Positions 9,200 through 22,550 are shown, counted from the stretch's first letter. The stretch: DNA of 44,011 bases from Synechococcales cyanobacterium bin59.metabat.ball.084 (GCA_013297675.1 JAAFHZ010000023.1:1-44011), one strand, 5' to 3'. Numbers and translations: made by a program. Notes: generated from the letters alone by a model not told the origin.

Positions 9200-10555
9200 A
9201 TTACTAGCTCAACTTCTACTGCTGCTGTCGCCAGTACCGAAACATCCGTTTTACACATTTGGGGACAACACCCCCTATCCGGGGAAGTCAGAATCAGTGG
9301 AGCTAAAAACTCTGCCTTGGTTTTGATGGCTGGCACTGTGCTTTGCTCAGGCCACTGCCGCATTAATAATATTCCTGCTTTAGCCGATGTCGGCAAAATG
9401 TGTCAAATTGTGGAAGCTTTAGGTATTAAGGTAAATCGCAACGGCAGCTCGATCGATTTTGATGCTAGTAATGTGACTGGCCACAGCGCTCCTTATGAAT
9501 TGGTTTCTAAGCTGCGGGCGGCTTTCTTTGCCGTTGGGCCAATTTTGGCTCGCCAAGGTGAAGCTCAGGTGCCTCTGCCCGGTGGCTGTTCGATCGGCGA
9601 TCGACCAGTGGAACTGCATATCCGTGGCCTGCGGGCTTTGGGTGCTACCGTAGAAATTGTGCACGGTGAAGTTCACGCCAAGGCCAATAGTGCCAATGGT
9701 CGCCTGCAAGGTACTAAAATATATTTAGATTATCCCAGCGTAGGGGCAACCGAGACTTTGATGATGGCTGCGACTTTGGCTGAAGGCGAAACTGTTTTGG
9801 ACAACGCCGCCAAAGAGCCAGAAGTAGTGGATTTGGCTAACTTCTGTATTTCGATGGGTGCCAAGATTGCCGGTGCGGGCACTGAGCGCATTGTAATTCA
9901 GGGCGTAGACAAACTGCACGATACTGAGTATGAAGTAATTCCTGATCGCATTGAAGCGGCGACTTTTTTGGTGGCCGGTGCCATGATGCGCTCCGAAATA
10001 AGTCTGTTTCCGGTGGTGCCCATGCACTTGGCCGCCGCCACTGCTAAGCTGGCAGAAATTGGCGTAGAAATTGCGATCGATGGCCCTCGGATGCGGGTTT
10101 TGCCACCTAAAGAAATTAAGGCGGTGAATATTGAAACTCTACCCTACCCCGCTTTCCCTACCGATATGCAGGCGCAGTTTATGGCCTTGCTCTCGATCGC
10201 TAACGGTAATAGCGTGATTACCGAAACCGTGTTTGAAAACCGTCTCCAGCATGTAGCTGAGCTGCAACGCATGGGAGCTAACATTCAAGTTAAAGGCAAC
10301 AATGCGATCATTCAAGGAGTGCAAAAGCTCTCTGGTGCGAAGGTAATGGCCACCGACCTCCGGGCTTCGGCAGCTTTGGTGGTAGCGGGCCTGTTTGCGA
10401 ATGGCATGACTACCGTAGAAGGTCTACATCATTTGGATCGCGGCTACGAAAACATCGAATCTAAACTGCGCAGCCTGGGTGCCAAGATCGATCGGGTGGT
10501 GGTAGATAACAACGGCTCGGTAATTCGATCGGCTAATGATTCTGTGAAAGCTTAA
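9200..10555 (+). CDS. murA: UDP-N-acetylglucosamine 1-carboxyvinyltransferase, with a probable ATT start
   Basis: MurA transfers enolpyruvate from PEP to UDP-GlcNAc, the first committed step of peptidoglycan synthesis, in the cytosol. The catalytic Cys lies in [11 protein letters not shown], and the substrate-binding Lys-Asn pair is in [10 protein letters not shown]. The first ATG in frame (9317) would begin after that Lys-Asn pair and delete the start of the fold, so the gene must begin upstream. No in-frame ATG, GTG or TTG exists between about 9122 and 9317. The best candidate is ATT at 9200, with a perfect GGAGG at 9187-9191 eight bases before it; it gives 451 residues, usual for cyanobacterial MurA. 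An early sequencing error is the alternative. A strong terminator follows the gene. Confidence 0.92.
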
Positions 10556-10579
10556 GTTCAAATTTAGCTAGTGAAAAAG

Positions 10580-10603
10580 GAGGGTTGTTAACCCTCTTTT
10601 TTT
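10580..10603 (+). terminator. Rho-independent terminator of murA
   Basis: The stem GAGGGTT (10580-10586) pairs with AACCCTC (10590-10596) across a three-base loop and is followed by seven T. It lies 24 bases after the murA stop. Confidence 0.9.
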
Positions 10604-10695
10604 ATGGAATTAACCGAATACGCTGTAACCAATATAGATACATCACCTACATCGGCTGTTCACCGATCATGCTGCCTTAGGCTTGGAAGTTTTGA

Positions 10696-12582
10696 CTAGG
10701 CAACGATATTAAAATCATTGGCCGAGAGGCTATTCACACCAGTCAAGTTGGCAAAGGCTCCGCCATTGGTACCTACTCCAATTGCTGCTCCATTTTGGTT
10801 GTAAAAGAGCTGATTAGACCCTTGGCTGTAGACGATAGAAGCAGCAGAACCAGCAACTAATGTATCGTTAGTTACAACAGCAAAATTTGCCCCAATTGCT
10901 CCACCTACGGCACTGGTGATGGCACTAAAAGTAGTCTTGCTCAGAACAAGCTTATCGACATTGCTTACAAAATCAACAACAGTATCGACACCTAACAACG
11001 ATGTTACCGTACCCGATAATGATCCTCCTGAGAACACAAAACTGTCACTGCCAGCATCACCTCGGAAAGTATCGTTCCCAGCACCGCCATTAATGACATT
11101 GTTAGCTGTATTCCCTTGAATATAGTTGCTTAGGTTATTACCAGTGCCATTGATCGCGGCTGAACCAGTCAAAAATAGATTTTCGACATTTGCCGTCAAA
11201 GCTGTAACTGTCAGAACAGAATAAGCGGTGTCATTCCCTTCATTAGCAAGTTCAATGATCACATCATTGCTGGTGTCTGAGCCGATGGATATGAAGTAGG
11301 CATCATCCCCCGTTCCGCCAACTAGGGTATCTGTACCGGCACCGGCATACATATCATCGTTACCAGCACCGCCAACTAAGGAGTCATTGCCTAGATTGTC
11401 TCGCAATACGTCATTACCGTCAGCCCCAGATAGGATGTTATTTCCCGAGTTCCCTTCGATGAAGTTGTTCAGATTATTTCCTGTACCATTGATCGCGGCT
11501 GAACCGGTCAAAAAGAGATTTTCGACATTTGCTGCTAAGGCTGTAACTGTCAAAACAGAATAGGCGGTGTCATTCCCTTCGTTAGCGAGTTCAACGATAG
11601 TGTCATTGCTGGTGTCTGAGCCGATGGATATGAAGTAGGCATCATCCCCCGTGCCGCCAACTAGGGTGTCTGTACCGGCACCGGCATACATATCATCATT
11701 GCCAGCACCACCAACTAAGGAGTCATTGCCTAAGGCATCTCGTAATAAGTCATTGCCATCACCACCAATTAGACTATTATTGGCCGTATTACCTGTGATT
11801 GAATCATTACCCGCACCACCAGCAACATCCACAAAGTTTTGCACATTGAAGCTTAAGTTACCAATATTGGGAATATTATTCACTATCAGGCTGTTAGTCG
11901 CGAGGTTGGCAATGATCGATACCGCTGCTGGATTGGTGGAAGCACTAATTCGGTTGACCAAGCCAGCTTGACCAATGATAGTGTCTATCCCAATCAGCCG
12001 ATCGAAAGCACCGCCACCTTTTTGGAGAACGCCCTGAGGCTGGAGGACAATAGCTTGGTTAAGGCCGGTGTAGTTGACCGTATCAATACCAGCACCACCA
12101 TTAATAGTATCGTTACCGGCTGAGAAAATAAAGGTGTCATTACCATCACCGCCAACTAGGTTGTTGTTTGCTGCACTACCAGCGAGAGTATCATTACCTG
12201 CGCCACCAGCGACATCCGTAAAGTTTTGCACATTGAAGCTCAAGTTGCCAATATTGGGAATATTGTTCACCGTTAGGCTATTGGTAGCGAGGTTGGCATT
12301 GATTGTAACCGTTGCCGGGTTAGTAGATGCATCAATCCGATTAGCAAGGCCAGCTTGACCAACGATAGTATCTATCCCAATCAGCCGATCGAAAGCACCG
12401 CCACCCTTTTGGAGAATACCTTGAGCCTGGAGGACAACAGCTTGGTTAAGGCCAGTGTAGTTGACCGTATCAAGACCAGCACCACCATTAAGAGTATCGT
12501 TACCGGCTGAGAAAACAAAAATGTCATCAACGATAGTGCCTACTAAGTTGTCGTTAGATACAGTGCCTGTAAAAGTTGCCAT
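10696..12582 (-). CDS. RTX-type calcium-binding repeat protein
   Basis: This 628-residue acidic protein is dominated by Ca-binding nonapeptides of the GGxGNDx type (GGAGNDTL, GGDGNDTF, GGTGDDAYF). There is no N-terminal signal peptide, as expected for type I secretion, and the last 125 residues look like the C-terminal export region of such proteins. It is built from two exact-length tandem duplications: residues 20-148 and 149-277 (129 each), then 278-390 and 391-503 (113 each). There are no Cys residues. No catalytic domain is recognisable, so a surface or matrix role is likely but not shown. No type I secretion genes lie in the window, so export would use a transporter encoded elsewhere. 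The start at 12582 is preceded by AGAGGTAG. Confidence 0.88.
   Translation of the reverse strand: MATFTGTVSNDNLVGTIVDDIFVFSAGNDTLNGGAGLDTVNYTGLNQAVVLQAQGILQKGGGAFDRLIGIDTIVGQAGLANRIDASTNPATVTINANLATNSLTVNNIPNIGNLSFNVQNFTDVAGGAGNDTLAGSAANNNLVGGDGNDTFIFSAGNDTINGGAGIDTVNYTGLNQAIVLQPQGVLQKGGGAFDRLIGIDTIIGQAGLVNRISASTNPAAVSIIANLATNSLIVNNIPNIGNLSFNVQNFVDVAGGAGNDSITGNTANNSLIGGDGNDLLRDALGNDSLVGGAGNDDMYAGAGTDTLVGGTGDDAYFISIGSDTSNDTIVELANEGNDTAYSVLTVTALAANVENLFLTGSAAINGTGNNLNNFIEGNSGNNILSGADGNDVLRDNLGNDSLVGGAGNDDMYAGAGTDTLVGGTGDDAYFISIGSDTSNDVIIELANEGNDTAYSVLTVTALTANVENLFLTGSAAINGTGNNLSNYIQGNTANNVINGGAGNDTFRGDAGSDSFVFSGGSLSGTVTSLLGVDTVVDFVSNVDKLVLSKTTFSAITSAVGGAIGANFAVVTNDTLVAGSAASIVYSQGSNQLFYNQNGAAIGVGTNGGAFANLTGVNSLSANDFNIVA
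11074..11751 (-). repeat. Tandem duplication, two 339-base units in the RTX gene
   Basis: The units at 11413-11751 and 11074-11412 encode residues 278-390 and 391-503. The segment GNDSLVGGAGNDDMYAGAG is identical in both, as is most of the sequence after it, so this duplication looks younger than the 387-base pair. Confidence 0.85.
11752..12525 (-). repeat. Tandem duplication, two 387-base units in the RTX gene
   Basis: The unit at 12139-12525 encodes residues 20-148 and the unit at 11752-12138 encodes residues 149-277. Both run from the FSAGNDT motif through NNIPNIGNLSFNVQNF to GGDGN with few substitutions and no gap, so the duplication is fairly recent or maintained by gene conversion. Confidence 0.85.
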
Positions 12583-13043
12583 ATGTAATGCTACCTCTGA
12601 GATTTTTTACTTTTAAAGATATTTTTTCAAGAGAAATCAACACTACGAGGCGAGAGTAAAATACTCAAGCGGCATAGCTAGATTAGATATTCAATTGAAT
12701 GACACAATCAATCAACTTCCATGAAGCACACATTATGCGTGAATATGATAGCTAGACTACATAACTGAGTGAAGGTGTGTTGTTAAATTTCTTTACATTG
12801 TATTGTTGCATAATAGATAGTGAAGATCAACAAGATAATTAGTTTTCCAGATCAGGTAGTCTGTGTTACAGTTCAACTGTAAAAATCTATACATAAATAC
12901 TTACATCTTAAACAGCCAGTTAAATGGCCTTAAAGTTCCCATCCATAGAAAAACAGGATGCCCTCAACTTCTTTCTCAGCATTCAATGCTGGTTAGGGGC
13001 ACCACTGGGTTGAAGCTATATCTGGCTGACCAGTTTTTTATAT
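12583..13043. other. Intergenic region upstream of the RTX gene
   Basis: This 461-base AT-rich stretch must hold the promoter of the RTX gene. A short plus-strand reading frame at 12863-13051 has no ribosome-binding site and unconvincing composition, so I do not call it. I see no repeat or RNA gene. Confidence 0.5.
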
Positions 13044-14087
13044 TTATTTGAACTTCAAAACACCCTTTTGGCCAAGCTGCCACCGATCGCTGGCGATTTC
13101 TTCTACCAGGGCTGGTCGGACTAGGATGAATTGCCCATAGTTTTCCTGATAGCCTTCGCAGGTGTAGGCCGAATTAACAGTTTTATAAATGTGAGAATTA
13201 ATGGGGCGCTTTTTGTTAGGCACTAGATAGATTGAGCTGCCTCGCCGGACTACCAAAAAGTTTCCTTTCCGATCGGTCACAAAAGTCACTTGGCTGGTGT
13301 CTCCATCCCGTAAGCGATCGAGGGCATTTTGATCGATCGAGACATCCCAGGCATCTTTGCGGATAGCTTCAGAAACACCGGCATAACGGTTGTACAAGTC
13401 TAACAAATCCCTTTCGGCGGGAGAAATAGGAGTCTTAATTTCAGGTGGTTGGATCTGTTCCGGGTTGCCCGGTAAAGCAATCGATTCCCTTCGGGATAGC
13501 TCCGCTTCACGAGTCTTATCGGATAGGGCAGGTTCATCTTTCATTGCTGCGGCGATTACTGGAGCTATCGGTTCGCTAGTAGCTCCGTTGCTAGCTTTGT
13601 TTGCAGGCGAAGACTTTGCTACTAGGCGTTGGATAATTTCTCGATATTGTCTTTCGAGGTTAGCTATTTTTTCGGCTGAATCTTGGTTAGTTTGAATAAT
13701 TTCTTTGCACAATTCGACTTCTTTGGTTAACTCATCAATCTTGCGGTTATAGCGATGACGCTCTTGAATGTAGGAGCCATTGAAGGTGTGTAGTTCGGTA
13801 GTTAACTGTTGCACCCTGGCCTCTAGAGCGCTGATATCGGTTGGGGATTGGTTTTGAGGTTGAGGTGCCTGGGTTGGGGGTGGCTCAGGCTGAAAATTAC
13901 TGGTGACGACCTGCTGCTGCTCATACATTTTGATCAGCCTTTTGTACATCATTGCTGCCCAGTTCACCACATCAGCATCGGTGCGGGGATCGCGGGTAAC
14001 GGAGGCGAAGCCGATCGGCCACTGGCATCTGGGGCAACGATTTCCATCGCGAGTAAACTCATGAGAGCATACTAGGCATTTTTCCAT
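13044..14087 (-). CDS. Zinc-ribbon coiled-coil protein of unknown function
   Basis: This 347-residue soluble protein has three parts. Residues 1-25 are a zinc ribbon (C4-x2-C7 and C18-x2-C21). Residues about 80-170 contain a coiled coil (SALEARVQQLTTELHTF onwards) after a Pro/Gln-rich linker. Residues about 220-347 form a compact C-terminal domain that begins LLDLYNRYAGVSEAI and ends DRWQLGQKGVLKF; I believe similar tails occur in other uncharacterised cyanobacterial proteins, but cannot verify it here. It is the last of three minus-strand genes, 314 bases after the NTF2-like gene, so it may have its own promoter. Function is unknown; zinc binding and self-association are inferred. Confidence 0.8.
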   Translation of the reverse strand: MEKCLVCSHEFTRDGNRCPRCQWPIGFASVTRDPRTDADVVNWAAMMYKRLIKMYEQQQVVTSNFQPEPPPTQAPQPQNQSPTDISALEARVQQLTTELHTFNGSYIQERHRYNRKIDELTKEVELCKEIIQTNQDSAEKIANLERQYREIIQRLVAKSSPANKASNGATSEPIAPVIAAAMKDEPALSDKTREAELSRRESIALPGNPEQIQPPEIKTPISPAERDLLDLYNRYAGVSEAIRKDAWDVSIDQNALDRLRDGDTSQVTFVTDRKGNFLVVRRGSSIYLVPNKKRPINSHIYKTVNSAYTCEGYQENYGQFILVRPALVEEIASDRWQLGQKGVLKFK

Positions 14088-14401
14088 GTTAATCTCTCCA
14101 GGTAAGTAACATCAATTTGAATTAGCTAAAAAGCTTAAATTCTAAAACAGCAGCTTAAAAATACAATTCTGTTTAGTGTAGAGGCAACTTTGCGCTTCGT
14201 CGATGATTTACATCAGTTTTTAAGCCAACATCTTGAGTGTAATGTTATATGTGATACAAATGTAAGTGTTGAGGTGAAAGTTAAACTCCATAGGCACTTG
14301 GCCGAACGGGGCTAATTCGTAATTTGGGAATTTACATTCCTCTACTTATATCATTTTGATGTGGAGAAAAACACAAAAATAATAACTAACTATGGCCATT
14401 T
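14088..14401. other. Intergenic region upstream of the zinc-ribbon gene
   Basis: This stretch of 314 bases separates two minus-strand genes and holds no reading frame I would call. It probably contains the promoter of the zinc-ribbon gene. I see no terminator or repeat. Confidence 0.5.
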
Positions 14402-15109
14402 TTAGGAAAGTTTATCGATGCCATAAATTTTCCAAGCGCCGCTAGATGCGTCGAACTTGAGATAATACTGAGCAATATAAAATTTGCCATTGAACTGACA
14501 GTGAGCGCGCACGGTTGCTTTATCCGGGGTGATTTTCATGGTTTCTACCTTTTTTACCTTGGTCTGTTTGCCAAAGCTACTCCACCACTTTAAATACTCT
14601 CCTGCATAGCCCCCCGGATTGGCCGATCGATTACCCTGAAAATCTCTCGATAGATCTTGCCAAGCCCCCTGATACTGGGCATTTTGCAGCTTGCTGTAGT
14701 AGCTCCGAATAAAGCTATCTGTGGCAGGACGCTGAATGTTGGGGACTGACGGTGAAGCAGGAGATGAATTAGTTTTTTTTACTGCCGGGATGGGCTGAAC
14801 TGAAGAGATCGGACTGGGAATAGGTAAGGGCTGGGGCGGATTAAAGGGAACAGGTGGCGGATTTGATGGTTTATTTTCTACTAATGGAGCTATTGATGGG
14901 ATCGGTGAATTGCTAGGAGTTACCACCGGCTCGGGACTAGTGGAGGGATTGACAGGAGTCGTATCCAGAGGAGTAGCCACCGGACTGGGTTTACTGACTA
15001 CCGTAGAAGGTTGCGGCACATTGTCACGAGTCAGAATCAAGATGCTACTAAGGACGATCGCACCAGCCATAATCGCCGCACTAATTAGAATCGCTTTGTT
15101 GTCGTTCAT
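14402..15109 (-). CDS. Membrane-anchored NTF2-like protein with proline-rich linker
   Basis: The protein has 235 residues. One transmembrane helix at about 7-27 (AILISAAIMAGAIVLSSILI) anchors it with the bulk outside the cytoplasm. Residues about 33-130 are a Pro/Ser/Thr-rich linker. Residues about 130-235 form a small domain (SFIRSYYSKLQNAQYQGAW ... GAWKIYGIDKL) with the alpha plus beta layout of NTF2-like/SnoaL folds; I recall similar domains at the C-termini of cyanobacterial Ser/Thr kinases. No catalytic residues are evident, so a binding or sensory role is inferred. It follows the VWA lipoprotein gene by only 18 bases, so the two are very probably one operon and may interact in the periplasm. 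Confidence 0.75.
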   Translation of the reverse strand: MNDNKAILISAAIMAGAIVLSSILILTRDNVPQPSTVVSKPSPVATPLDTTPVNPSTSPEPVVTPSNSPIPSIAPLVENKPSNPPPVPFNPPQPLPIPSPISSVQPIPAVKKTNSSPASPSVPNIQRPATDSFIRSYYSKLQNAQYQGAWQDLSRDFQGNRSANPGGYAGEYLKWWSSFGKQTKVKKVETMKITPDKATVRAHCQFNGKFYIAQYYLKFDASSGAWKIYGIDKLS

Positions 15110-15127
15110 GGCTGCGTTATCTGTGAA

Positions 15128-16480
15128 TTAATTTTTTTGAATTCCGTGACAAACTCGGGCGATCGTCACGGGTTTAGCTTTAGTGAGAGTAGAGACTCCG
15201 ACGGCTAAGCTGTCTAAGAATTCTTTGAGTCCGGCGGTTTTTGCCCCATCATTTTGGCCACCGTGCCAGCTATCCCACTGGTTGGAAGTTTTTATTGCCA
15301 CTACTTGGATATCGGTGGTGGCGTAGTAAAGACCATTTTTAAAGCCGTCAGGATTGATCTCGATGCCAACATCGATGCCCTGATCTTTGATGGTGTGTTT
15401 GGCCTGAAAATCGGCTGGTTTGACGGTGGGGTCTACCACAAAACTGCTTTGGGCATCATCGAGCTTTTTGACGGTGGTAGTAGTTTGTGTGACCCAAGAG
15501 CTACCTTGATCTCCAGATACTTTACTGCTCAAAGAGTAATCGAGCTGGCTTTTTTCGGCGCGACCGCCCAGTTCGAGCATTCCGATCGGCTGTCCACCAT
15601 CTTTAAGCGCTACCCCATTGAGCAACAGTGAAGCCGGAGCCGTAAAACCACTGGGCATGGTTTTGACTTCGCTTTTGAGATAGGCTACTTCTTCTACTAA
15701 GCCTTCAGAGCTAAATAGCGAGAACTGCTGCGAGGCATCGCTGACCAAGCTGCCGCCTTGGGTACGCATTTGTTTAGTGAAGTCATTGAGATGCTCCATT
15801 TTACCAACCATCAATAGATAAAAAGGATGACCTTTGGCTAGAGTGGTGGCTTGGTACGGATAGGGTGCGGTGCTGTTCGGCGGATAGATCGAGCCATCAA
15901 ATTCGCTTTTGAAGCCCCAGATGGCTACTCCGTAACCGGGGATCTTGAGATAGTTGTCTACTAGTTTTTTAGTGGCCTGTTTGGTATCGCCATCATCTTG
16001 CTGTAAGTCGGTCACAATCATCACCAACTTTTCGGTTTTGGGGGCGCTAGATTCTAAAACATCGGCAATTTTGTTGGTTTTGCCGGTGTAAAATGCCGGG
16101 GTTTTAGACTGTTGAAAGCCTGCTCGATCGAGCTTTTTCACAGTTTCATCAAAGCGGACATACTCAACTTGTCCGGGGTTGACGAGGCTAATGTTGTCTA
16201 AAATTTCTAAAACTTTGCCGTAGCGGGCACCGCTATTCTTGACAAAGCCAGCCATAGAAGCCGAGCCATCGATCGCTAGGCTGACCAGATACTTACCGCC
16301 CGCGTTCTCAGTTTTGGCGGCAAGCTGGCAAGGTAAGCCTATTTGTTTGCCACTGGCGCTTTTTCCTTCGGTGATGCCTACTGCTTCCTGCCCAACAGGC
16401 TTACAGCCGTTCAGGACAACTGCTACAATTATCAAGATTAAGAACTGCGGGGCAGAAAGACGGCTGATGATGGGCAGCAT
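15128..16480 (-). CDS. VWA-domain lipoprotein
   Basis: This 450-residue protein has a hydrophobic signal ending in the lipobox L23-N-G-C26, so it should be a lipoprotein. A von Willebrand A domain spans about 64-250, with the MIDAS start D71-G-S73-A-S75 and the later acidic motif VMIVTDLQQDDGD. VWA domains bind metal-dependent protein partners. The remaining 200 residues are beta-rich and match no family I recognise. It heads a minus-strand cluster with the NTF2-like protein (18 bases downstream) and the zinc-ribbon protein. The divergent membrane protein gene starts 126 bases away and may share a control region. Its partner and purpose are unknown. Confidence 0.85.
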   Translation of the reverse strand: MLPIISRLSAPQFLILIIVAVVLNGCKPVGQEAVGITEGKSASGKQIGLPCQLAAKTENAGGKYLVSLAIDGSASMAGFVKNSGARYGKVLEILDNISLVNPGQVEYVRFDETVKKLDRAGFQQSKTPAFYTGKTNKIADVLESSAPKTEKLVMIVTDLQQDDGDTKQATKKLVDNYLKIPGYGVAIWGFKSEFDGSIYPPNSTAPYPYQATTLAKGHPFYLLMVGKMEHLNDFTKQMRTQGGSLVSDASQQFSLFSSEGLVEEVAYLKSEVKTMPSGFTAPASLLLNGVALKDGGQPIGMLELGGRAEKSQLDYSLSSKVSGDQGSSWVTQTTTTVKKLDDAQSSFVVDPTVKPADFQAKHTIKDQGIDVGIEINPDGFKNGLYYATTDIQVVAIKTSNQWDSWHGGQNDGAKTAGLKEFLDSLAVGVSTLTKAKPVTIARVCHGIQKN

Positions 16481-16606
16481 ATTTGAGATGAACTGTATGA
16501 TTATGATAGATTATAGTGTCTGAGTGCTGGGTTTTCCTAAAATTTCTCTTTCCCGTAACTGCAAACACCTCGCGTAAAAAGTTTTCAATACAACATTTTA
16601 ACAAGA

Positions 16607-17095
16607 ATGATCATTACCACCGCTGAAATTATCCGTCTCTTTGTTTTCCCAATTATGGGATTGTTGTTGATGTTTGTGATCCAGCCAACTCTATACCAGA
16701 GCCAAATTATTCGTTTAACTGATGTGACTGTAGAAAAATGGTTGCCAAATGGTTATTATCCTCAGGCTAGCTTGGTATTTGGTTGTGCCATTTTTGCGGC
16801 TTTAGCCTGGGTGGTATGGAACACCATGTCTCCACCCGGTGCAATGTCCGTGCGCAAAGGTCGATCGATCGCCTGGTGGATTTTAAGTTTGGTGCCAATT
16901 TTAGCCGTAATTGGAGCCACTGTTTGGTCACGAAAAGCAGTGCTGGGTGATAAGTTTGGGAGCGATGTGGCCACTTTATCTCTGGTGGCTTTATTTAGCT
17001 TAGATATTTTGTTTTTGTATTGGTTGACCACCGCCACGACCACACCGGGCAATGCGCGAGATTTGCCGCCCGGAGCGAGGTTACTTGGTCGATAG
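16607..17095 (+). CDS. Four-helix membrane protein of unknown function
   Basis: This 162-residue protein has four predicted transmembrane helices, at about 9-28, 52-72, 88-107 and 121-141, with short polar loops. I do not recognise the family. The tail (DLPPGARLLGR) is probably cytosolic or lumenal and carries no motif. It lies between two clusters: divergent from the VWA lipoprotein (126 bases) and 58 bases before the aldehyde dehydrogenase start on the same strand. It could belong functionally to either. The reading frame is well used, and the ATG at 16607 begins the first helix sensibly. Confidence 0.75.
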   Translation: MIITTAEIIRLFVFPIMGLLLMFVIQPTLYQSQIIRLTDVTVEKWLPNGYYPQASLVFGCAIFAALAWVVWNTMSPPGAMSVRKGRSIAWWILSLVPILAVIGATVWSRKAVLGDKFGSDVATLSLVALFSLDILFLYWLTTATTTPGNARDLPPGARLLGR

Positions 17096-17153
17096 CTTTT
17101 TGTGGGAGCTAAATCCGCATGAGATAATGTAGATGGACTTGTCGGAGGAAAGC

Positions 17154-21518: not shown

Positions 21519-22004
21519 TTAACCCAAGCCAGAGCAGATATAGTCGAAATAAACGCCCATTTCCTTACCGGCATCAGCGCCAACTAAGCTAGCAGTTACT
21601 TCTTTCATAGCTTGAATAGCTTGAGAAGTAGCAGCAACAGGAACTCCTAAAGAGTTGTAAGTTTCTTTCAAACCGTTTAATACGCGCTCATCCAAGATGG
21701 AAGGGTCGCCAGCTAACATAGCATAGGTCGAATAGCGCAGGTAGTAGTCCAAGTCACGAATACAAGCAGCATAGCGGCGAGTAGTGTACATGTTGCCACC
21801 GGGACGAGTGATGTCCGAGTAAAGCAAAGATTTAGCGACAGCTTCTTTAACAATAGTGGCAGCATTTGCACTGATCGTGCCAGCAGCACGTACTCGCAGT
21901 TCGCCAGTACCAAAGTAAGCTTTAAGCTTGTTTAGTGAGTTTGAATCCAGGTACTTGCCCTGAACGTCCGAAGAGTTGATTACAGAGGTGATTGCGTCTT
22001 GCAT
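21519..22004 (-). CDS. apcB: Allophycocyanin beta subunit
   Basis: This 161-residue phycobiliprotein has the start [20 protein letters not shown], the chromophore region [16 protein letters not shown] with the Cys that binds phycocyanobilin (C81 in usual numbering), and the C-terminus [11 protein letters not shown]. The length is exact for ApcB. It pairs with ApcA to form the trimers of the phycobilisome core that receive energy from phycocyanin and pass it to the photosystems. It is 60 bases after apcA, with AAGGAA before the ATG. Co-transcription with apcA is expected. Confidence 0.98.
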
Positions 22005-22064: not shown

Positions 22065-22550
22065 TTAACCCATTGCGCCGATTAGATAATCGAAGTAAGC
22101 ACCTGCTTCAGCAGCGTCTTCACCAGACATCATGGCTACAGCAGCATCTTTCATTGCACGGATGCCGCTAGCAACTGCGTCAATTGGGGTGCCCAAAGAC
22201 TTATACATTTCGCGCACGCCTACCACACCGATTTCTTCGATCGGGGTAACATCGCCAGCTACTACTCCGTAAGTAATCAAACGTAGGTAGTAGTCCATGT
22301 CACGCAAGCAAGTTGCAGTCATTTCTTCGCCGTAAGCGTTTCCACCAGGAGAAACCACATCAGGACGTTGTTGGAACAGTTTGTTACCAGCTTCTTTAAC
22401 CAGACGTTCACGTGAATCAGTCAAAGTTTGAGCGATTCTGAGGCGACGTTCGCCAGAAGTTACAAAAGACTTGATCCGGTCGAGTTCGCCGGGGCTTAGG
22501 TAACGGGCTTCAGCGTCAGCATTGACGATCGCTTTGGTGACGATACTCAT
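22065..22550 (-). CDS. apcA: Allophycocyanin alpha subunit
   Basis: This 161-residue phycobiliprotein begins [20 protein letters not shown] and contains [18 protein letters not shown], where the Cys binds phycocyanobilin, and ends [14 protein letters not shown]. Length and motifs are those of ApcA. It leads the apcA-apcB-apcC operon. The ATG is preceded by GGAG at nine bases. The core-membrane linker gene apcE, often directly upstream in cyanobacteria, is absent here: an aminotransferase gene lies there in the opposite direction. Confidence 0.98.

Follow-up and report, generated by a model that had tools for sequence, protein, structure and literature searches.

The DNA segment analyzed in this study (referred to as the window; 44,011 nucleotides, JAAFHZ010000023.1:1-44011) originates from the genome of Synechococcales cyanobacterium bin59.metabat.ball.084 (GCA_013297675.1). 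It carries four adjacent genes, encoding (i) a zinc-ribbon coiled-coil protein, (ii) a single-pass protein with a Pro-rich linker and a putative NTF2-like domain, (iii) a lipoprotein with a predicted VWA domain and (iv) a divergently encoded four-helix membrane protein (Table 1). The original prediction, made from the sequence of the window, treated these genes as a possible undescribed envelope-signalling module. The comparative analysis presented here indicates that the VWA and four-helix genes, with the zinc-ribbon gene as a related accessory, are probably part of a larger tubulin/actin system of the FtsZl1 type, the other half of which has been relocated to a different contig of this genome.

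Table 1. Genes and other features of the analyzed region of the window.
Feature	Position	Strand	Characteristics
Zinc-ribbon coiled-coil protein	13044-14087	-	347 aa; reused C-terminal domain, residues ~225-347; predicted accessory or adaptor component
Single-pass Pro-rich/NTF2-like protein	14402-15109	-	235 aa; local passenger or lineage-specific accessory, outside the conserved set
VWA lipoprotein	15128-16480	-	450 aa; core component
VWA/four-helix divergent intergenic region	16481-16606		126-base gap
Four-helix membrane protein	16607-17095	+	162 aa; core component; usually leads an operon running on into the tubulin-like gene
Operon break point	17073-17133		Homology to the sister-species operon ends at the end of the four-helix gene

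All four open reading frames (ORFs) were found at the predicted coordinates and on the predicted strands, and their spacing was borne out by the sequence: 126 bases separate the divergent VWA and four-helix genes, and the NTF2-like gene starts 18 bases past the VWA gene. A gap of 314 bases lies between the zinc-ribbon gene and the other two minus-strand genes. The predicted protein features were confirmed as well. The zinc-ribbon protein contains two CxxC pairs (C4xxC7...C18xxC21) and a coiled coil, with no transmembrane helix; the NTF2-like protein has one transmembrane helix (residues 7-25) and a Pro-rich linker, and the four-helix protein has four hydrophobic segments. The proposed placement of the VWA and NTF2-like proteins outside the membrane, and of the zinc-ribbon protein inside, is consistent with these sequences. 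No match of credible score was obtained in Pfam or NCBIfam for any of the four proteins.

In the VWA lipoprotein the candidate lipidated residue, Cys26, follows a hydrophobic stretch within the lipobox VVLNGC, in which Asn at position -2 is unusual. This cysteine is conserved in at least 90% of 52 homologues, and a canonical lipobox is present in 54 of 64 relatives. The metal ion-dependent adhesion site (MIDAS), which the original prediction had described as intact (D71, S73, S75), was confirmed from the sequence as D71-x-S73-x-S75 with T157-D158; D71, S75 and D158 are invariant in the 52 homologues, which represent several phyla. An AlphaFold2 model built with the same number of sequences had a mean predicted local distance difference test score (pLDDT) of 87.6. 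In nearly all the best structure alignments, residues ~61-241 of the model matched VWA, integrin I, BatB and ArnAB structures (Z up to 7.6), and residues ~257-450 matched Ig-like sandwiches, pointing to a C-terminal Ig-like beta-sandwich. Since these Z-scores fall short of the value of 8 taken as the comfort line for such alignments, the VWA assignment is carried by fold and motif jointly. The model thus places a VWA domain, with a Rossmann-like alpha/beta fold and a MIDAS, at residues ~61-241, although this domain was not detected by Pfam, and a sequence-profile search of the PDB with the lipoprotein gave nothing useful. Cys51 and Cys444, both conserved in the cyanobacterial alignment, may form a disulfide.

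The VWA protein was found in 18 of 60 related genomes, and the VWA and four-helix families adjoin in most of the genomes that have them. Comparison of all ORFs around these genes revealed a typical locus composed of the VWA gene, a divergent four-helix gene, genes for a ~495-aa and a ~1080-aa protein, and one to three genes for proteins carrying the C-terminal domain of the zinc-ribbon protein. In most loci, from several phyla, all five families are encoded in a single cluster.

The ~495-aa protein belongs to the Tubulin_2 family (PF13809), known earlier as FtsZl1. The representative from the window genome (L049:6023-7483) matched PF13809 with 28.8 bits, the gathering cut-off being 27. All 76 relatives have a GGTGASG-type tubulin loop, in part because of how the search was built, and a sequence-profile search of the PDB with the tubulin-like alignment returned no match. 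The ~1080-aa protein contains an FtsA/MreB-like region, in which the actin-superfamily motifs VGVDFGTSFTN, CID-x-GGGTSD and GGNGSR are invariant or nearly so; DFGTSFT and D-x-GGGTSD correspond to the phosphate motifs and GGNGSR to the adenosine motif. The FtsA and MreB models (PF14450 and PF06723) were matched by 11 of 11 of these proteins, below the gathering score, and their best PDB matches were to FtsA/MreB at the phosphate-2 motif, with weak E-values of 0.01-0.07. By these motifs, the ~1080-aa partner encoded in the window genome is a predicted member of the actin/FtsA superfamily. Second, shorter actin-like paralogues (730-994 aa) were observed downstream in several loci (L061:16922-19906, L064:17406, L067:18317 and L072:17455), and the one in L061 is devoid of the canonical phosphate motifs.

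With the tubulin-like alignment as query, 80 loci were obtained from named genomes. The combination of VWA, four-helix, tubulin-like and actin-like genes recurs in Poribacteria, Nitrospirae, Aminicenantes, Pyrinomonadaceae (Acidobacteria) and Selenomonadales (Negativicutes). Outside the cyanobacteria, and in Synechocystis/Synechococcus-like genomes, the VWA gene is co-directional with the four-helix gene, often 12-17 bases upstream of it; in many other cyanobacteria the two are divergent. The conservation of the VWA/four-helix neighbourhood beyond a single strain, for which the original prediction had proposed a gene-neighbourhood check, was observed. The idea of a four-gene module held in part: the VWA and four-helix genes are neighbours and the zinc-ribbon domain occurs in the same system, but the core of that system is the tubulin-like/actin-like pair, which is on another contig of this genome and so could not be seen from the window. 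A free-standing four-gene module was rejected, since in most relatives this place is occupied by the tubulin-like and actin-like genes, which the window genome has at another location.

Clustering (blastp) of the proteins flanking the cyanobacterial loci revealed no further family that recurs widely. Most frequent was an OmpA-like protein, encoded at six cyanobacterial loci (PF00691, E = 0.00034 in L084, below the gathering score) and not found near the window genes. In one locus (L045:12462-15180) a 684-aa membrane protein adjoins an OmpA/MotB-like protein near the operon, and similar pairs occur in Synechococcus-type loci (e.g. L084:16720-18959).

The alignments of the tubulin-like, VWA and actin-like proteins were searched separately in 120 genomes of the order, and each identified an identical set of 29 genomes. 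If presence were independent, identical sets would have a probability near 10^-28 for one pair, a value that is too optimistic because the genomes are related. The 29 genomes span some 17 families, several of which also hold members without all three genes. Pairwise divergences of the four core families correlate across 39 loci (Spearman 0.73-0.90), a correlation from which shared phylogeny was not removed and which phylogeny alone could produce. Genome G116 has in-frame stops in both its VWA and its actin-like gene, and genome G040 in both its VWA and its tubulin-like gene; either concerted decay or errors in sequencing could account for them.

Contig C198 of the window genome carries the tubulin-like and actin-like genes, together with two zinc-ribbon-family genes, at ~10022-16890 (L049:6023-12891). 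In a sister species (G001) the operon is unbroken, and its gene order is that of the Synechocystis-type operon apart from a flipped VWA gene (L031). By blastn, the DNA of the sister species aligns with the window up to the end of the four-helix gene, where the match stops, and with C198 from just before the tubulin-like gene onward; the window itself continues past the four-helix gene into an aldehyde dehydrogenase gene. Thus, the operon is broken between the four-helix and tubulin-like genes, and the half encoding the two putative nucleoside triphosphatases (NTPases) has been relocated to C198. An assembly or binning artefact, with the operon intact in the organism, might be suspected in a draft genome of 220 contigs; however, the break ends are situated well inside C137 (44 kb) and C198 (20.6 kb), and both contigs run on into other intact genes. 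A contig end is therefore not the cause, and we consider an artefact very unlikely.

Ratios of nonsynonymous to synonymous substitution rates (dN/dS), calculated against the sister species, are 0.06 for the VWA gene, 0.03 for the four-helix gene, 0.01 for the tubulin-like gene and 0.02 for the actin-like gene (murA, 0.02). Given these low values, both halves of the operon appear functional and under strong purifying selection. Values are higher for the zinc-ribbon-family genes (0.14-0.21), which evolve faster. Directly behind the relocated half-operon (L049:12897-13913) lies a gene for a PDDEXK nuclease of the YhcG/DUF1016 type, with a strong PADLOC match to PDC-S02, followed by genes for another protein with the zinc-ribbon C-terminal domain and for a Uma2 protein.

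The C-terminal domain of the zinc-ribbon protein had been suspected of reuse in other cyanobacterial proteins, and this is the case. The window genome contains seven copies of the domain, and it is present, often in multiple copies, in 32 of the 120 genomes. Of 82 scanned proteins with this domain, six also contain WD40 repeats; others carry transmembrane helices or coiled coils. A further fusion, to an FGE-sulfatase domain, was observed in an unlinked copy from the sister species (L151:856-2613); FGE-sulfatase is an effector type reported for cyanobacterial conflict systems (PMC7159879). The domain was modelled with a pLDDT of 93.9. Foldseek and VIA-align comparisons of the model with the PDB revealed no convincing relative (best Z 2.4), which does not imply a new fold, and a sequence-profile search of the PDB with the zinc-ribbon family returned coiled-coil noise only. 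In the sister species the zinc-ribbon gene adjoins murA, as in the window, at a contig end, and its linkage to the VWA gene there is likely. Between murA and the zinc-ribbon gene, the window also contains a gene (10696-12582) for a 628-aa protein with RTX-type calcium-binding repeats (PF00353), which is missing at the corresponding place in the sister species.

The NTF2-like gene does not belong to the conserved set. For the C-terminal domain of its product, no match was found in Pfam or NCBIfam; homology was observed only to the C-terminal, extracytoplasmic part of Ser/Thr kinases. An intact NTF2-like gene adjoins the VWA gene in no other sampled genome, and in the sister species a 33-aa deletion remnant abutting the VWA gene is all that is left of it. 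The proposed pairing of the VWA and NTF2-like proteins was not upheld: on the evidence of both the neighbourhoods and the deletion, the NTF2-like protein was rejected as a core partner and is taken as a passenger or a lineage-specific accessory.

Published data link the system to motility in Synechocystis PCC 6803. Proteins of pilus assembly and of the photosystems co-fractionate with Sll0445 (Tubulin_2), Sll0446 (FtsA domain) and Sll0447, and phototaxis is impaired when any of the three genes is disrupted by insertion (PMC9880817). A single transcription unit comprises sll0443-sll0449; it has a putative CRP site and appears in the same list as slr2015-slr2018 (pilA9-11) and further units (PMC2633013). 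In a lexA mutant, sll0443-sll0445 and sll0448 are upregulated (PMC4759255), and in a comFB mutant with pilus defects Sll0445 and Sll0446 are deregulated, in dependence on ComFB and cyclic di-AMP (PMC12313861). In the VWA/four-helix intergenic region of the window, CRP-type sites were no more frequent than expected by chance.

Synechocystis salina (L103) and a closely similar second genome (L046) have the gene order VWA, four-helix, Tubulin_2, FtsA-like, adaptors. The order in sll0443-sll0449 is alike, with Tubulin_2 third and the FtsA-like gene fourth. Because in these two genomes the VWA and four-helix genes stand just before Tubulin_2, sll0443 and sll0444 are, by gene order, expected to be the VWA and four-helix genes, respectively. 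As judged from S. salina, the genes are co-directional in Synechocystis, whereas in the window genome they are divergent and the operon is split after the second gene.

The system is not wholly undescribed, contrary to what had originally been considered possible: apart from the Synechocystis counterparts with knockout phenotypes (PMC9880817), it was outlined in 2010, when Makarova and Koonin reported the association of FtsZl1 (now Tubulin_2) with VWA proteins and suggested a role in membrane remodelling (PMC2875224). This function was disputed in the reviews published with the paper, one reviewer proposing transport or signalling (PMC2875224), and at least the main text makes no mention of an actin-like partner (PMC2875224). 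The features shared with the system described here are the tubulin-like protein, an operonic VWA protein with an intact MIDAS, membrane-associated partners, OmpA-like proteins in a subset and cyanobacterial members (PMC2875224). An operon including such a VWA gene was found in most relatives; in the window genome the split has left these genes on two different contigs. In contrast to the type protein (1051 aa), the cyanobacterial proteins have ~490-500 aa and lack the long coiled-coil tail of most members. The missing coiled-coil/alpha-helical C-terminal region is not defining, since it is a feature of most, not all, FtsZl1 proteins. A further difference is the constant ~1080-aa FtsA/MreB-like partner. 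P-loop GTPases and Ser/Thr kinases, which are frequent but not universal in the described FtsZl1 systems, did not form a recurrent family in the blastp clustering of the cyanobacterial loci.

The FtsZ-FtsA divisome is similar in that a tubulin-family and an actin-family protein are encoded together and expected at the membrane; it differs in that the genes described here are distinct from those of cell division and present in only a quarter of the order. The conflict systems reported by Kaur et al. (2020) combine tubulin-family, actin/HSP70-superfamily, VWA and adaptor domains in a similar manner. The blastp clustering of the cyanobacterial loci did not reveal GAP1 GTPase or FNIII proteins as recurrent neighbours, no profile search having been aimed at GAP1.

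Taken together, the VWA and four-helix genes of the window, with the zinc-ribbon gene as a related accessory, are likely to encode part of an envelope-anchored tubulin/actin machine of the FtsZl1 type that supports surface motility. We infer polymerisation, transmembrane coupling, an adaptor role and a role in motility in this species as follows: (i) the tubulin-like and actin-like proteins would assemble at the cytoplasmic face of the plasma membrane, (ii) the four-helix protein would relay this state across the membrane to the external MIDAS lipoprotein, (iii) interchangeable zinc-ribbon-family proteins would recruit partners as adaptors and (iv) the output in cyanobacteria would be a cell-surface function needed for type IV pilus-dependent phototactic motility. 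More tentatively, and this may well not hold, the tubulin-plus-actin pair might drive, via the four-helix protein, a metal-dependent state of the VWA-Ig lipoprotein, like an integrin-type inside-out device, with the unnamed adaptor domain allowing every genome to attach a partner set of its own.

Such a machine would give bacteria a tubulin-actin partnership in addition to FtsZ-FtsA, one with an apparent connection to the cell surface. Predicted from genomes since 2010, the FtsZl1 system now has defined constant parts: the VWA-Ig lipoprotein, the four-helix protein, the tubulin-like and FtsA-like putative NTPases and the shared adaptor domain. With these parts, the all-or-none inheritance of three of them and the Synechocystis motility mutants, its function is directly testable in a model organism.

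Several points weigh against this interpretation. Interfaces, filaments and NTPase activity are predictions, and the structural Z-scores of the VWA domain are all below 8. The identity of the PCC 6803 counterparts depends on the published Tubulin_2/FtsA annotation and on the gene order in L103 and L046. The motility phenotype comes from one study, which also saw photosystem effects, and may therefore be indirect. The system is present in only about a quarter of the order, and thus does not belong to the core of the type IV pilus. Finally, members from outside the cyanobacteria may have a different role.

Following the 2010 proposal, the system could instead be a generic membrane-remodelling or vesicle-forming machine, the motility defect being an indirect consequence of envelope change. 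The proposal itself (PMC2875224), the OmpA-like partners in some loci and the photosystem effects in the mutants agree with this, as would a possible presence in non-motile or non-piliated lineages. However, none of the studies consulted reported a remodelling activity, and regulation together with pilus genes points to surface motility; we regard a generic remodelling function as unlikely.

Distinctly improbable, in our judgement, is a biological-conflict (defence) system like those of Kaur et al. (2020), where proteins with tubulin, HSP70-type, VWA and adaptor domains would assemble and set off an effector and the zinc-ribbon domain would be an effector-associated adaptor. The patchy, all-or-none presence of the genes is in line with such a role, and so is the position of the relocated half-operon beside the YhcG-type nuclease and Uma2 genes. 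The many-copy adaptor-like domain, linked and unlinked, and fused to WD40 propellers or FGE-sulfatase, also resembles effector-associated domains (PMC7159879). Yet no core protein gave a credible PADLOC match, the zinc-ribbon protein giving weak coiled-coil matches only, and no nuclease, toxin or other effector family recurs in the cyanobacterial loci. Moreover, cyanobacteria are reported to have hardly any of the GTPase-centred GAP1-N2 systems that include tubulin and HSP70 (PMC7159879), and the known mutants affect motility.

A model in which the VWA lipoprotein and the NTF2-like anchor pair up as an external sensor and signal to an internal zinc-ribbon protein can hardly be right: the 18-base adjacency, the compatible topology and the resemblance of the NTF2-like domain to the extracytoplasmic part of Ser/Thr kinases would suit it, but elsewhere the VWA gene has no intact NTF2-like gene beside it, and in the sister species it is a remnant while the VWA and four-helix genes are strongly selected.

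Elsewhere in the window, two tandem genes (21519-22004 and 22065-22550) encode 161-aa paralogues that share 37% identity and are unrelated to the gene set described above.

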